Shown one piece after another: positions 5,201 to 54,193 of a DNA stretch of 64,000 bases. Every line of letters begins with the position of its first letter. Position 1 is the first letter of the stretch. This DNA is from Diprion similis (taxonomy: Eukaryota; Arthropoda; Insecta; Hymenoptera; Diprionidae): NCBI RefSeq assembly GCF_021155765.1, contig NC_060118.1, forward strand, positions 7,006,001 to 7,070,000, given 5' to 3'. Position numbers and translations under genes: made by a program. The notes below the pieces were generated by a model, which had not been told where the DNA came from, searched no databases, and was given only the letters and a program-made list of their open reading frames with translations.

Positions 5201-8200
5201 CAGCTAGAACTGCAACAGGATTTATTGAAAAGCTATAATTACGTAGAACGAATAATTGGTAAAAATTTGTTAATTGGTTTGCTTCAATCGACAAAAGACT
5301 AGACGAATCTTGTTTCTTCTGTTATTTATTTAAATAATATTTTTTTTTACAGCTGAATATAACAAACCGGATTCGGGACATCCAGATTATTATTGTAAAT
5401 GGGAAAGTTTACCATATGCTGATGCGACGTGGGAAGATGGAGCTTTAATAATAAAAAAATGGCCTGAGAAGATTAAAGAATTTCGTGATAGGGAAGATTC
5501 GAAACGAACACCCAGTAAACATTGTAAAGTATTAAAATATAGGCCAAAATTTCATCAAGTCAAAGGGCAGCCTGAATACATGGGAAGGGGGAAAGACTTA
5601 GTCTTGAGAGACTATCAAATGGACGGATTAAACTGGTTGATTCATTCTTGGTGTAAAGAGAATAGGTAAGCCGCCGCGAGATATATATTATATATTCGAA
5701 ATACGGTATCAGAATTCAAGCGAGTACCGATAATCTAGCAAGACTGTTAACCAAAGATGACTTATTAATTTATTCTCGTTTATTTTTTTCGTTCTCAGTG
5801 TTATTCTCGCGGATGAAATGGGTCTAGGAAAAACTATACAAACTATATGCTTCCTTTACTACCTCTTTCACACGCAACAGTTGTACGGACCATTTTTATT
5901 GGTTGTACCATTGTCTACGATGACGTCTTGGCAAAGGGAAATGGCACAGTGGGCACCAGATATGAATTTTGTAACTTACCTTGGTGACGTGACGTCTAGA
6001 AACGTGGTGAGTGTTCTGAACTTGGCAGAATATTTTTATTGAATGTTTTCTCTCTGTTTTCTGTTTACTCGATGTATTTATATGGTTTACAGATTAGGGA
6101 GTTCGAATGGTGTTATAGTTCAAAGAGATTGAAATTCAACGCAATTTTGACCACGTACGAAATAGTTTTGAAGGATAAGACGTTCTTGGGGGCTATAAAT
6201 TGGGCCGCTCTGCTCGTCGATGAGGCGCATCGTCTCAAAAATGATGATTCACTTTTATACAAAGCATTAACAGAGTTTCATACAAATCATAGACTTCTTA
6301 TTACCGGAACTCCGTTACAAAACAGTTTGAAAGAGTTGTGGGCATTGCTGCATTTTATAATGCCTAACAAGTGAGTGAATCTTTTTTTATTTGGTATTAA
6401 ATAATCCGTAACACTGTTTTGAATTCTTTAAGCGACGTGTATTACAATTTCTTTCAAACAAATAGATTCAACTCTTGGGAAGAATTCGAAAAAGAACATG
6501 ACAACGCGGCGCAAAAGGGTTACTCAAAGCTTCACAGGCAATTGGAACCATTCATTTTGCGTCGAGTCAAGAAAGACGTGGAGAAATCATTGCCGGCTAA
6601 AGTTGAACAGATATTACGTGTCGAGATGACCTCTTTGCAAAAACAGTATTACAAGTGGATACTTACTAAAAATTATAATGCCCTTCGCAAGGGTGTTAAG
6701 GGATCGACGACGACGTTTCTCAACATCGTTATAGAGTTGAAAAAATGTTGCAATCATGCATTCCTGACTAAGCCAACGGACGGTGAAAGGCGAGAAAGCA
6801 ACGAGGATTATTTACAACAGATAATTCGTGGATCGGGAAAATTAGTTCTGTTGGATAAACTGTTAGTACGACTCCGAGAAACTGGTCACAGAGTTTTGAT
6901 ATTCAGCCAGATGGTCAGAATGTTGGATATCTTAGGGGAATATCTGCAAAAAAGGCATTTTCCCTTTCAAAGATTAGATGGAAGCATAAAGGGAGAGCTC
7001 AGGAAGCAAGCACTGGATCATTTCAATGCAGATGGCTCGCCAGACTTCTGCTTTTTACTGTCAACCAGGGCTGGTGGTCTCGGAATCAATTTAGCAACAG
7101 CTGATACTGTTATTATATTTGATTCTGATTGGAATCCGCAGAACGATCTGCAAGCCCAAGCTAGAGCTCATCGTATAGGTCAAAAAAACCAGGTAATTTA
7201 TCTAGATTTGGTCACTCCGGCAACATTTCTTCCAATTGACCAACTAATGCAGACTTTGCCCTGATTATCGTTTGACAGGTAAACATATATAGATTGGTAA
7301 CAAAGAATTCGGTGGAAGAAGAAATAGTTGAACGTGCGAAGCAAAAAATGGTGCTCGACCATTTAGTCATACAGAGGATGGATACCACGGGAAGAACCGT
7401 CTTGGATAAAAAGGGTCCCAACACAAATAACAACCCTTTTAACAAGGAAGATCTAAACGCCATTCTGAAGTTCGGTGCCGAAGAATTGTTCAAAGATGAA
7501 GAAGACGGGGATGAGGAACCAACTGTAAGTTTGTTCGACCTAATTTAGATCAACTTCAACGTCTTTGGCAATAAAAATCGGCTCCTTTGTTTGTTTATAG
7601 TGTGACATCGACGAAATACTGCGTCGTGCTGAAACGAGAGACGAAGCCCCGGCAACAGTGGGAGACGAACTTTTATCAGCGTTCAAAGTTGCCAGTTTTG
7701 CAGCATTCGAAGAAGAGACAGAGCCGATTCCTCAGCTTAATGAAATTGACGATGAAAGTAAAGATTGGGTGAGCATTGTTTGCACAGTTGTAAACTGATT
7801 GTTGATGTACAAAAGTAACTTTTGGATCTAATCTTTTCTTTGCAGGCTGAGATTATTCCTGAAAATTTTAGAAAAAAGCTTGAGGAAGCGGAAAAATCTA
7901 AGGAAATGGAGGATCTTTATCTACCACCCAGAAGTCGAAAGACTCTTCAGCAGATCAATCAGTCTGGCGAAGGTAACTTGTTTTAGAAATCAAATGCAGT
8001 TGTTAAGGTTGCCATTTATCGAATGAAAAACATTTGATTTATCCAGTGATATAATTCCCAAGGAAATTACTCGGCCTTCTGTGAACACATTTTCCTCATC
8101 ATTTTTTAAAAATATCGTTGATTTGAATGTATAAATCCAATAACATGATATTGACATAACGAACATACTAAATCTACATGGATATTTTATAGAAGGTAGA

Positions 8201-49480: not shown

Positions 49481-50676
49481 AGTTTCTGTGATAATTATAT
49501 TTCATTCGTGATCATTTTAGTCATTTTGCACGAATGAAATCAAGCACAACATGATTTGTCATAATATTAATAGCAGAAACCTGATATTTTACTGCTGATA
49601 GGAGCGATCGAATTTCGCTTTGGTTATTTAATCACATCAGACATATTTTCATCGAGTCAATTATCGAAAGCATTTTTATTTAATTCTTGGATTGAATGTT
49701 AGTCTAGGGAAAATTTCGTACGTATACATGGCGAAAAATAATCACGATGCATGTCCGGACGTCACCGTATTACCTGAAAATTTTCTTCAAATTATTTTGC
49801 CTCATTGCATATAGTGATTGCTAAATGCTGTTTCCGTGTAGTATTTGTTAATTAATGCTTCATTGTTTTTTTTTCCGTTTAATCTCTAGTGCTTTGTTCT
49901 AAATACATTCAGGAAACTTGATTTTTGGACCGTAGATTAGTTTACTTTTCAGCAGTCTCTCGAATAGAAATTGTGACTACCAATTTTTGGTTTTCGGTAT
50001 TTATTAAATTCTTAATAGTTTACATATTCTATAAACATGTCATCAAGTTCACGCGATTCATTATTTGTTTTTGTTTTTTTTTTTTGTATAAAAACTAGTA
50101 CATTATAATATAAAATTCTTTTCATGAATATCGGTTCTACACTTTCCAAATAATTTTCATCACGCATTCAAGAATGAAATAATACATAATACAGGTTTGC
50201 AAGTTTTCAAGCTTTATTAGATGCAAACATAAACGACCATTATTTACAGCTTGAAAGTATTGAAATTAAAGTCTCTTTTCGGCCAGAAAAATAATCTGTA
50301 GCAATGCGAGCGTGTAAGGGCACACTTGCTTGTATATTTAAATGCACATCTTTGCCTCGATTAGCAAGTTTAACAAACCTGTTATGGAATTCACAAGCTC
50401 TTTATCAATAAACCGACACGATTCTTCGTCGGCGATTTGTATCGATGAAAATTACGAGACAGCTGATAATATTTGTTACAGAATTTGCAGTATGGTCGCT
50501 GTTCGTAATTAGAACATTAATGTGGATCCAGTGATTGCGTTGCTCTTGGCTGATTCAAAGTCGTTACAGTCTTTTGGATCCCAAGGCAGCGGTCAGCCGC
50601 ATCACTAGCTTATATATGAGGAAGAAACATAGTTTCAGTTACGGTATGACGTGATTCAAGCCAAATTTATACTCGA
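49481..50676. other. Spacer between the fibrillarin 3' end and the POC5-like start
   Basis: This must include the POC5-like promoter and the fibrillarin 3' UTR. A minus-strand AATAAA at 50213-50218 lies 460 bases after the fibrillarin stop. No other feature was seen. Confidence 0.5.
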
Positions 50677-53065
50677 TTACGCAGCCTTCTTGGCTGGTGG
50701 TCTGAACACTCCGACTACTACAGCGTGATCTCTTTCGTAGGGTTCTAGTGTGATTTGTTCTTGCGGTTTCAGTTTGTCTGAAACTAATTTCTTCACCTCC
50801 GCCGCGAATACTGCCTCTGGTTGCGCCGTAGAATCGATGCAGCTTGCCTGGTACAAGGATATAAGTATGATTAGCAAATTGTCAGAGATTGGAGAGTCGA
50901 ATATGTAATACACATTATGTGTTATACTGGTCATTTATTTCATTGTTTATTTTACCTTGATAGAGATAACGAAGTGGCCACCATTTTTGAGGAAGTATTG
51001 CGCATTGAGAGCAACAATTCGCGCCTGATCAGGTTGCGCAACGTCTGCAAAGATTGTGTCCACCATACCAACTAGCATTCTGTATTTGTGCGGGTGTCGA
51101 GCATCCTCGATTATTGGAATGATGTTGGTGCGTTTCTTTGCCACGTTTATCAGATCCCTACCTGATCTGTGCGAGAATTCTACAGCGTATACGAGTCCTT
51201 CCTAAATTCAAAACAGGAAACATTGTTATCAAATTAAGAAAGCACGTAACAGGAGAATTGAATTTTGAAAATTTACACCCCAATAACTAATTATTCAATT
51301 CGATTAAGGTTTGTTTTATTTAAAAGTACGTAGATTGAGCTGAATTTACATTTTTTTTCTAATTAGAAACAATCATTAGAAAGCATTGTTATTGACAATA
51401 GTGTCATTCATTTTGCTCGGTGAGACGTTTTGCAGTAGTCATATCCCTAGAAATGCTTAACCGATTTACTCCAAATTTGGGGACAGTGATCTTGGATAGT
51501 TCAAGTTGCCACATCTTTTGATAATTATACAACGAAATATTAAATTTCGGAAGAAAAATCGATATTCAACTTCAAATGGTACATACATCAATCTATGTAT
51601 ATTCAACAACTATTGTACACTTGCCTATTGTTCAATAGAAGTATTATACTTCACAGAATATCAGATAGGCTAGTTTATATTTTTATTGCATCACTTCGAC
51701 ACCAAGTAAGTGAAAATTAACAAACTTGGCTCTAATGTATGCGTGTTGCATGTCATGGATTAAAATTATTTTCAATTCATTATTTACCGGTCCAACAACA
51801 TCTGCCACATGTGACACCGTCGTTCCAGATGCAGCTCCAAGGTACAAAACTTTGCTGCCTGGTGGCATGTGAATTTGATCTACTCCTCCAAGAATTGCAG
51901 CAGCTAATTTGGATCTGAACGGATTCCACACTCTGTATTCAACCTTTTCTGAATTGTCAGCCTGGAATCAAGCGCACATTTTCATTATTCTTTATTTATT
52001 TAAAACGGAATACTGAGGTACAAAACATAATTCAAAAGTAGAAAAGTTTTACCCAAGAAACTTGATTGTCTGCACCAACCATTCTCAGTAGGAATTTAGT
52101 AACCTACAGATCTTAATAATTCGTGCAATATTTTTTCTTGCATAACTTCGACACCAAGTAAGCAATTATTAACTTATCTGGCTCTAATGTATGCATTCTT
52201 TGATATTAACTATGTAAGAATTTCTGCAAGACTCTTTTGGAGTTTTCCTTTACAGTTCAGTTACTGAAAATAATCACGTTAAAGGTACATATTTGGATTT
52301 AGACCTGAGTAAATTCTGGTAAACGATATAATATAATATTTATACATTTCGTATTACATTTGATTGAGATTGTAAAACAAGTCTCACCTCAACGCTGATT
52401 CTTTTTTCACCGTAAACCTCCGAACCTGGAACAAGGTTCAATGTGACTAATGCGTCTTCTTTTCCTCTGGCTATGAAAACTCCTTCGTGACGATGTGGCT
52501 CAATTACCACGGTTTTCCCGCCTCTGAAACCACCACCCCCGCGTCCTCGGCTACCTCCCCGACCACCCCCTCGTCCTCTCGGGGTTCCTCCGCCTCCTCG
52601 ACCGCCAAAACCTCCGCCACCTCTGCCTCGGCCACCACCTCGATCACCGAAGCCTCCACGTCCTCCACCGCCGCCTCGTCCCCCACGAAAACCACCACCG
52701 CCGCCACCACCTCGACCACCCCGAAATCCACCGCCTCCACCGCCTCCACCGCCTGGAGAAAATCCTGGAAATGCGAGAAAGCTTTAGAAAAGGTTTACAA
52801 GTTTTGATCAGTTTTATTCTTAGGAACCTTGTTGAAAAATAACTGACTCAAGTGAAAGGGGATCGAAATTAGTGATGAAAAAAATGTTGCAAGACCTGTT
52901 TTGGGGAACTAACGTATTTTCCAACGCGGTTAAAGGTTACCCCCAAGACGCGTGCGAGATGCCGCGAGACGAGGCGCTTCGCATCATCATAATTATGTGT
53001 ATTTAGAGAAAAACTTGAATGTGAAAAAATGAATGATGGGGTTATCGCTTACCTGGCTTACCCAT
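50677..53065 (-). CDS. Fib: Fibrillarin, rRNA 2'-O-methyltransferase
   Basis: Catalytic subunit of box C/D snoRNPs; it methylates ribose 2'-OH in pre-rRNA in the nucleolus using S-adenosylmethionine. Exons on the minus strand: 53065-53053, 52764-52388, 51961-51788, 51201-50956, 50847-50677; 326 residues, against 321 in human. Exon 1 encodes only MGKP plus one base. Exon 2 is the glycine-arginine-rich domain (about residues 7-90; RGG and GGFRGG repeats), then [21 protein letters not shown]. Exon 3 carries [19 protein letters not shown] and the SAM-binding [20 protein letters not shown]. Exon 4 carries [10 protein letters not shown] and [10 protein letters not shown]...ADVAQPDQ. Exon 5 ends [22 protein letters not shown]. 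The gene is complete and typical. The antisense open frame over exon 2 is a shadow of the GGN/CGN codon runs. Introns 2 and 3 host snoRNA candidates. Confidence 0.98.
51611..51742 (-). ncRNA. Paralogous H/ACA snoRNA candidate in fibrillarin intron 3
   Basis: Hairpin 1 is clearly homologous to the snoRNA in intron 2: the pocket arms CATTAGA and GTCGAAG are identical. Its upper stem is a cleaner 7-bp GCCAAGT/ACTTGGT, followed 14 nt later by an H box ATAAAA. The second half is unrelated in sequence but can form GAAGT/ACTTC and ACT-A-GCC/GGC-A-AGT stems. An ACA at 51616-51614 gives the same total length of 132 nt. The 3' hairpin is less regular than in the other copy, so this may be a functional paralog with a new 3' guide or a decaying copy. 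Confidence 0.55.
52064..52195 (-). ncRNA. H/ACA box snoRNA in fibrillarin intron 2
   Basis: The 132-nt segment has every H/ACA hallmark. Hairpin 1: basal stem TGCATA/TATGCA, pocket, upper stem GCCAG-A-TAAG/CTTA-C-TTGGT. It is followed by an H box AGAAAA (52138-52133) 14 nt after the upper stem. Hairpin 2: basal stem TGCAC/GTGCA, upper stem TC-T-GTAGG/CCTAC-T-GA. It is followed 15 nt later by ACA (52069-52067), three bases from the presumed 3' end. These distances match the 14-16-nt rule for pseudouridylation pockets. The pocket of hairpin 1 predicts a target of the form ACTTCGAC-U-N-TCTAATG. Processing would be from the spliced fibrillarin intron, the usual route for animal snoRNAs. Confidence 0.78.
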
Positions 53066-54193
53066 CTTATTTCAAAGTATGTAGAATCAAAAACACGCTC
53101 CTTACTGCGCTCGGTACCGCGTGTACTTTGGGGTATTTTAGGCACACGCCGTACACGTGAGCCAAAACGTTTGCTGGCGCGGAAATCGGGTTCCCTCTTA
53201 TCGACACTCGAATATCGATTTTCGACTGACGATTATCGAGGCTCGCAAGCGTCAAACATCGAAGAATTTCACGCGTGGTTTCCGGATTTCAAAAGTAGTA
53301 GAATATAGCTGTTCATTGGCGAATCGACAGATGACGAAAGAATTAGAAGACTATTACTCTTGAGAAAATTTACCTGACCAGTACTCTACTGGTAAGTGGG
53401 TCTGAGGACGTAAGAAGCCGTGTTAGCGGTCCGGTAGCTTCTTTATCGGCTGGAGCCGTTTAACACGAAATTTCATAAGACACATAATACCCCATTGAGG
53501 TATTTCTTCCAATCTTTAACAATCTTCAGTTGGTGATCACAAATTGCATCACATGGTCCCATACATATTTCTGTAACCAGTATCTTATGCTTTCTGTTAA
53601 ATTATTCATTCTCATCAACATGACTAACGGTTGTAAGTGCCGACAAATTCTTTACGAAAAGCGTTCAAGATTTTACGCATTACAAGTTTGGCACGATTCA
53701 CTCAGAATTATTTTAAACAGTCTCATTTATCTGCAGCATAGTAATAATGGGTGGAAAGTAATAATTAGTTCGCGGGAAAATGAGCAGAATAGAGGCGTTG
53801 ATTAAAGATATTTAATTCTAAGTTTTCTGGTTCTGCGAAGGTTTTATTATAAGAAGTAATTCTTCAGCCTTGCATTCCAGTATGGGATGAGAGAATACTG
53901 TAATTTTCTCCCTCTTCAAAACCTCTTATTATTAGTCCTTACCCTCATGCCAAAGTTCATGAGGCTAGCAGTCTACATAAATATTCAGCCAACGGCACTT
54001 ATACAGGTCGTTGACTGAGGATATGTAGTCAACGTACAGGTTTTAAAATTGTTGAAATAGTGGTAAGAACGCGCCTTATTCTAGGCATTTTGCAAAGCAA
54101 ATGATCAATGCGGGTTGCAACTATTTTTTTCAATACAATATGGCGGCAATCTCTGCAACTGTCAAATAATTTTGTGGTTCGCTTCAGTTTAGA
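53066..54193. other. Divergent promoter region of fibrillarin and NRDE2
   Basis: About 1.1 kb separates two head-to-head start codons. The GC-richer part next to fibrillarin (53080-53260) probably contains its promoter. A short perfect hairpin ACCAGTA-CTC-TACTGGT occurs at about 53378-53394. No TATA box was recognised for either gene. Confidence 0.5.

Follow-up and report, generated by a model that had tools for sequence, protein, structure and literature searches.

The fibrillarin gene of Diprion similis lies on the minus strand of the window (the whole stretch of DNA that was analyzed, 64,000 nt), and its introns 2 and 3 each contain a 132-nt element resembling a box H/ACA snoRNA. Joining of the five exons gives a product of 326 amino acids that matches the Pfam family Fibrillarin with E 4.3e-108 and human fibrillarin (PDB) with E 1e-151; judged by these matches, the host is a genuine fibrillarin. 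An earlier sequence-only reading had placed an H/ACA guide RNA in intron 2 of a fibrillarin gene, and both the identity of the host and the position of the RNA within this intron (52387-51962) are borne out. The features of the locus are as follows.

50677..53065, minus strand: fibrillarin gene, start to stop codon (exon joining, Pfam and human match)
53065-53053, 52764-52388, 51961-51788, 51201-50956 and 50847-50677, minus strand: the five fibrillarin exons
51962..52387, minus strand: fibrillarin intron 2, 426 nt, GT..AG
52064..52195, minus strand: H/ACA RNA copy 1, 132 nt, in intron 2 (fold; sole descriptor match in the window)
52139..52195, minus strand: 5' hairpin of copy 1 with pseudouridylation pocket (fold; over 63 nt, 84% identical in intron 3)
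52183..52189, minus strand: left guide of the 5' pocket of copy 1, CATTAGA; its ATTAGA pairs with UCUAAU of 28S
52145..52152, minus strand: right guide of the 5' pocket of copy 1, GTCGAAGT; its GUCG pairs with CGAC of 28S
52133..52138, minus strand: H box of copy 1, AGAAAA, 14 nt from the pocket
52071..52127, minus strand: 3' hairpin of copy 1 (fold), with no sure target
52067..52069, minus strand: ACA box of copy 1, 3 nt before the predicted RNA end, 15 nt from the pocket
51202..51787, minus strand: fibrillarin intron 3, 586 nt, GT..AG
51611..51742, minus strand: H/ACA-like RNA copy 2, in intron 3, 132 nt counted from its first paired base through ACA + 3
51693..51737, minus strand: 5' pocket region of copy 2, guides at 51737-51731 and 51700-51693
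51681..51686, minus strand: H box of copy 2, ATAAAA
51614..51616, minus strand: ACA box of copy 2, in register with that of copy 1

Copy 1, which lies 192 nt downstream of the 5' splice site of its intron and 102 nt upstream of the 3' one, has the H/ACA plan of a double hairpin with an internal pocket in each half. Both boxes occur in both copies (AGAAAA and ACA in copy 1, ATAAAA and ACA in copy 2), the 3' ends being predicted. The pocket-to-box distances of copy 1 are 14 and 15 nt, within the expected range of about 14-16, and its 3' hairpin consists of the lower stem TGCAC/GTGCA and the upper stem TCTGTAGG/CCTACTGA with an internal U-U mismatch. We scanned the whole 64-kb window with an H/ACA descriptor written for this analysis (two pocketed hairpins, ANANNA, ACA, and a spacing of 13-16 nt), which matched once on the minus strand, at exactly 52195..52064, and nowhere on the plus strand. 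The coordinates 52064..52195 and the parts of the RNA given in the sequence-only reading are thus correct, with the boxes located and the same two spacings recovered by the descriptor. That reading had also suggested folding the minus-strand segment and searching it with an H/ACA model. The 132 nt of copy 1 fold with an energy of -34.4 kcal/mol (z -3.34), one of 200 shuffles being equally stable; for the 5' hairpin alone (with 7 additional nt) and the 3' hairpin alone the z values are -3.36 and -3.38, respectively, and none of 200 shuffles is as stable in either case.

The descriptor alone proves little, since nine matches were obtained on 16 shuffled 64-kb strands, i.e. about one chance match per window. 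When only intron 2 was shuffled, 44 of 10,000 shuffles contained a match. Taken alone, the modeled structure of copy 1 is therefore suggestive, not proof. The chance rate per window lends some weight to the view that neither copy is a guide RNA and that both represent a duplicated intronic sequence which folds by chance and enters no RNP; we consider this very improbable, given the low rate per intron and the joint evidence of fold, boxes, paralogue, and target. No Rfam family reaches its gathering score anywhere in the window. A permissive Rfam scan of positions 50600-53100 produced three matches far below cut-off, one to a trypanosome H/ACA family and two to C/D families. The best of them, to the trypanosome H/ACA family TB9Cs1H1 (22.5 bits versus a cut-off of 55, E 0.17), covers the full model and falls on the 5' hairpin of copy 1 (52136-52195, minus strand). 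This match is most likely due to chance, and the guide letters of that family, compared by eye, misfit the rRNA site of copy 1.

The paralogue in intron 3 was absent from the sequence-only reading. A DNA search of the 269-Mb genome with copy 1 at E 0.001 found two places only, copy 1 itself and intron 3, and thus copy 1 is not a dispersed repeat. The copies are alignable over almost their full length with a single internal gap, and their H and ACA boxes are in register. Their 5' hairpins are identical at 53 of 63 nt, with the differences concentrated apically, and none of them falls in the 15 letters of the pocket (CATTAGA and GTCGAAGT); the anatomy, the paralogue, and the identity of the pockets are read directly from the DNA. 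Among the 16 stem pairs compared, none is changed on both sides, two have one-sided changes that preserve pairing, and four are broken in one copy. Copy 2 folds with z -2.84 over positions 51605-51745.

The 3' domains are much less similar. With the copies lined up on their H and ACA boxes, 30 of the 67 letters coincide, a value reached by 218 of 100,000 shuffles; of the 1120 registers compared across the region of introns 2 and 3, four more reach 29, so that this agreement speaks only weakly for homology of the 3' domains. Gapped alignment of the 3' domains is no better than that of shuffles (693 of 2000 equal it globally and 1851 of 2000 locally). In the 3' hairpin of copy 2 the outer stem is short and weak and the guide arms are complementary to each other, and the descriptor run on the whole window did not recover this copy; on these grounds its 3' pocket may be dead, and in the modeled fold it is doubtful as an H/ACA pocket. 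The same features, namely an agreement with copy 1 at just 30 of 67 letters, the short outer stem, and pocket arms that pair with each other, could mean that copy 1 is functional while copy 2 is a decaying duplicate, or pseudogene. We regard this as possible, though rather unlikely, because copy 2 has kept the pocket letters, the H box, and the ACA despite a changed apical loop and changes in much of the 3' half, and its 5' hairpin alone still folds with z -3.25. The likeliest history, as suggested by comparison of the copies, is that the whole RNA was duplicated between the introns and its 3' half subsequently drifted.

As regards further genes with this pocket, ACATTAGA-N20-40-GTCGAAGT was found at five places in the genome and a reversed control pattern at three. 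Two of the five are the fibrillarin copies; the remaining three (L021, L022, and L023) were dismissed on visual inspection alone.

Candidate targets were sought among 1336 uridines in 18S, 5.8S, and 28S pieces from the same genome. The 28S rRNA was represented by three unjoined pieces, 2541 nt from a degenerate rDNA unit (L008), 168 nt from L018, and 1231 nt from a displaced fragment (L011); parts of the rDNA are N in the assembly, and the scan covered the unmasked stretches. The top site for the 5' pocket is the uridine in 28S GGAATCCGAC-U-G-TCTAATTAAA (GAC-U-GUCUAAU), with 4+6 contiguous base pairs, and fits the target ACTTCGAC-U-N-TCTAATG predicted for this pocket in the sequence-only reading. 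This target site is present in seven of the eight 28S loci checked (8 of 11 rDNA places). The second site, 28S TAACTATGAC-U-C-TCTTAAGG, lies in helix 69 (GAC-U-CUCUUAAGG, or GAC-U-C-UCUUAAGG with the unpaired base set apart). Here seven pairs and one mismatch fall within the 8-nt right guide, and the left side contributes only 3 bp. The complementarity of the pocket to these sites is observed directly, and copies 1 and 2 share the same top two sites among all 1336 uridines.

A single high score is not rare among shuffled guides: the best score was equaled by 67 of 1500 shuffles for copy 1 and 101 of 1500 for copy 2, and the second-best score by two and 92 of 1500, respectively. The case therefore rests on the coincidence of both sites with those of yeast snR3, a match that the sequence-only reading did not contain. 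In a table of PMC8307265, yeast 25S Psi2133 and Psi2264 are both guided by snR3, and both are marked H, which we read as human. The helix-69 site fits the yeast modification list of the same source, AACU(2258)AU(2260)GACU(2264)CU(2266) (PMC8307265). On this fit, the second site corresponds to Psi2264. The first site is 130 nt upstream of the helix-69 site in Diprion similis rRNA, and since the corresponding spacing in yeast 25S rRNA is, on our assumption about its sequence, 131 nt, the first site would be the equivalent of yeast Psi2133. A second line of counting makes use of the snR13/U15 site, which is placed at A3274 in chicken (PMC2653536) and at A2281 in yeast (PMC8307265); if these are the same position, the chicken snR3/ACA6 site 3126 is yeast 2133. 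By position counting, then, the 28S site with which the 5' pocket can form 4+6 contiguous base pairs corresponds to Psi2133 of yeast 25S rRNA. Identification of the first site with yeast Psi2129 was rejected, as counting leads to 2133 and PMC8307265 assigns Psi2129 to snR5, and an equation with Drosophila Psi28S-2562 was withdrawn together with it.

When the guides were shuffled 4000 times per copy, both snR3-type sites came out as the top two never for copy 1 and once for copy 2, in a test that was not blind, since the link to snR3 was noticed after the matches had been seen; nor are the two sites independent, as they share the core GACUNUCU. This raises the alternative that the RNA is a real H/ACA guide for the Psi2133-type site only, and that its match to helix 69 stems from the core common to both sites. 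The left side of just 3 bp, the mismatch on the right side, and the lower helix-69 score of copy 2 (20.3 versus 24.3 for copy 1) agree with such a restriction, and we give it serious weight, if somewhat short of even. Nevertheless, according to PMC8307265, a single yeast RNA, snR3, serves both equivalent sites, and PMC2653536 includes chicken guides whose duplex is only 3 nt long on one side. Service of the first site, with helix 69 as a possible second target, remains our preferred interpretation of the 5' pocket.

No credible target was found for the 3' pockets of copies 1 and 2 in 18S, 5.8S, the 28S pieces, U1, U2, U5, or U6. In particular, the sequence ATTC-U-N-TCTTAAT, predicted as the 3' target of copy 1 in the sequence-only reading, is absent from 18S, 5.8S, the scanned 28S pieces, and these four spliceosomal RNAs. 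The best 18S sites of the 3' pocket of copy 1 are U1354 at spacing 16 (equaled by 42 of 1500 shuffled guides) and U258 at spacing 14 (65 of 1500), and at the descriptor spacing of 15 its best score of 20.4 is equaled by 493 of 1500. These 18S sites are not known to be pseudouridines; U1354, by our counting on the presumed yeast sequence, is four bases before yeast Psi1290, and because of this offset no target is assigned to the pocket. For copy 2 the best rRNA score is 19.8 (28S_c 653, spacing 16) and the best snRNA score 18.5 (U2 U44, spacing 15).

The latter match, together with a UGAG (the CAB motif) present in copy 1, would be compatible with a scaRNA guiding modification of spliceosomal RNA. 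This UGAG sits at the foot of the upper stem of the 3' hairpin, outside the loops; the apical loops of copy 1 contain no UGAG, and the pockets of copy 1 have no good match in the U1, U2, U5, and U6 of the same genome, which makes a scaRNA the least probable of the readings, with hardly any chance of being correct. Four U2 snRNA genes of the genome, two per strand, form a cluster of about 8 kb (G000:C5:2998498-3006592).

On the evidence of their target sites, copies 1 and 2 probably have the role that snR3 plays in yeast and, as regards the first site, the role of ACA6/SNORA6 in vertebrates. The resemblance to snR3 consists in the fact that the two best 28S uridines are both snR3 sites by position counting; the Diprion similis RNA differs in being intronic and in having two copies. 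ACA6 is given as the mammalian counterpart of snR3 (PMC2780460, PMC2653536). Chicken GGgACA36, identified with snR3/ACA6 in PMC2653536, is encoded in intron 3 of RPSA and pairs with 28S-3126 through 5+6 nt in its 5' pocket, versus 4+6 here, a duplex geometry that the same source gives for another guide. Human SNORA6 is likewise hosted by RPSA, with the target 28S-3616 (PMC6466398), whereas the host here is fibrillarin; the second target listed for ACA6/SNORA6 is 28S-3886 in chicken and 28S-4438 in human. Finally, Nc ACA3 of Neurospora crassa (26S-Psi2095) is listed together with yeast snR3 and human ACA6 in table 2 of PMC2780460 but is 217 nt long, intergenic, and guides by its ACA-side pocket.

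The H/ACA assignment made in the sequence-only reading is supported by the structure, the boxes, a paralogue with identical guide letters, and a 28S target that is pseudouridylated in yeast. Its emphasis on one transcript linking both rRNA modification systems is justified as well, although such a link has precedents in chicken DKC1 and NOL5A (NOP56) and, from the title of a study, in Arabidopsis fibrillarin. That study, by Barneche et al. in 2000, to judge from its title concerns a methylation-guide snoRNA in Arabidopsis fibrillarin genes; it has fibrillarin as host in common with our case, and differs in the class of the guide, which directs ribose methylation. In the chicken data of PMC2653536, introns of DKC1 and NOL5A, which like fibrillarin are genes for snoRNP proteins, host both C/D and H/ACA RNAs; the host genes and the targets differ from those described here. 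Duplication of a guide within one host is also found there, in introns 4 and 8 of DKC1 and introns 4, 5, and 6 of RPS3 (PMC2653536). Already known, then, are RNAs of this kind, their placement in introns, and snoRNP-protein genes that house guides of the two classes side by side; fibrillarin is an unusual host, but one with close precedents. Within the open-licence literature no report of snoRNA hosting by fibrillarin introns was found. For animals, an H/ACA guide housed by fibrillarin may thus be previously undescribed, though an earlier report is possible.

The best explanation, which we hold to be very probably correct, is that introns 2 and 3 of fibrillarin carry duplicated H/ACA snoRNA genes whose 5' pocket guides modification of the Psi2133-type site, and possibly of the Psi2264-type site. 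Expression, RNP assembly, and modification by copies 1 and 2 are what we infer for them. Each of the two introns would give rise to a snoRNA of the box H/ACA class, about 132 nt long, the two being copies of one duplicated gene; each spliced intron would be trimmed down to its snoRNA, which presumably would be bound by dyskerin, Nhp2, Nop10, and Gar1. The 5' pocket would then pair with the 28S flanks of GAC-U-G-UCUAAU and direct formation of the pseudouridine equivalent to yeast 25S Psi2133, and a second use of this pocket, at GAC-U-C-UCUUAAGG of helix 69 (yeast Psi2264), is possible.

A much more tentative proposal is that the guide for both snR3 sites, including the pseudouridine of the helix-69 intersubunit bridge, moved into fibrillarin in this lineage and was duplicated into consecutive introns, with the supplies of the C/D methyltransferase and of the H/ACA guide co-varying. 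If so, every fibrillarin pre-mRNA would give two doses of the guide, and the two supplies would change together. The locus is probably an instance of an animal fibrillarin gene that hosts guide RNA, and it names two 28S uridines, one of them in helix 69, as testable targets. It may also be seen as a natural experiment, in which a guide has been duplicated and has kept its pocket unchanged while its other parts drift, within a gene whose product belongs to the other modification system.

The rDNA loci consulted for the 28S sequence show some further features. The 28S copies at L018, L019, and L020 are interrupted on the 3' side of helix 69, directly after GACTCTCTTAAGG, by an insert beginning with repeated CTCTTAAGG, which resembles an R2-type retroelement site. 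L011 (C14:214001-223500), on the same contig as the window, contains a 28S 3' fragment at 5468-6590 downstream of a sequence that by eye looks like reverse transcriptase; this fragment is perhaps rDNA carried by an element, or a displaced rDNA unit. Contig C5 has, near its degenerate rDNA unit, an inverted piece of LSU rRNA (L008 6331-6458, minus strand).
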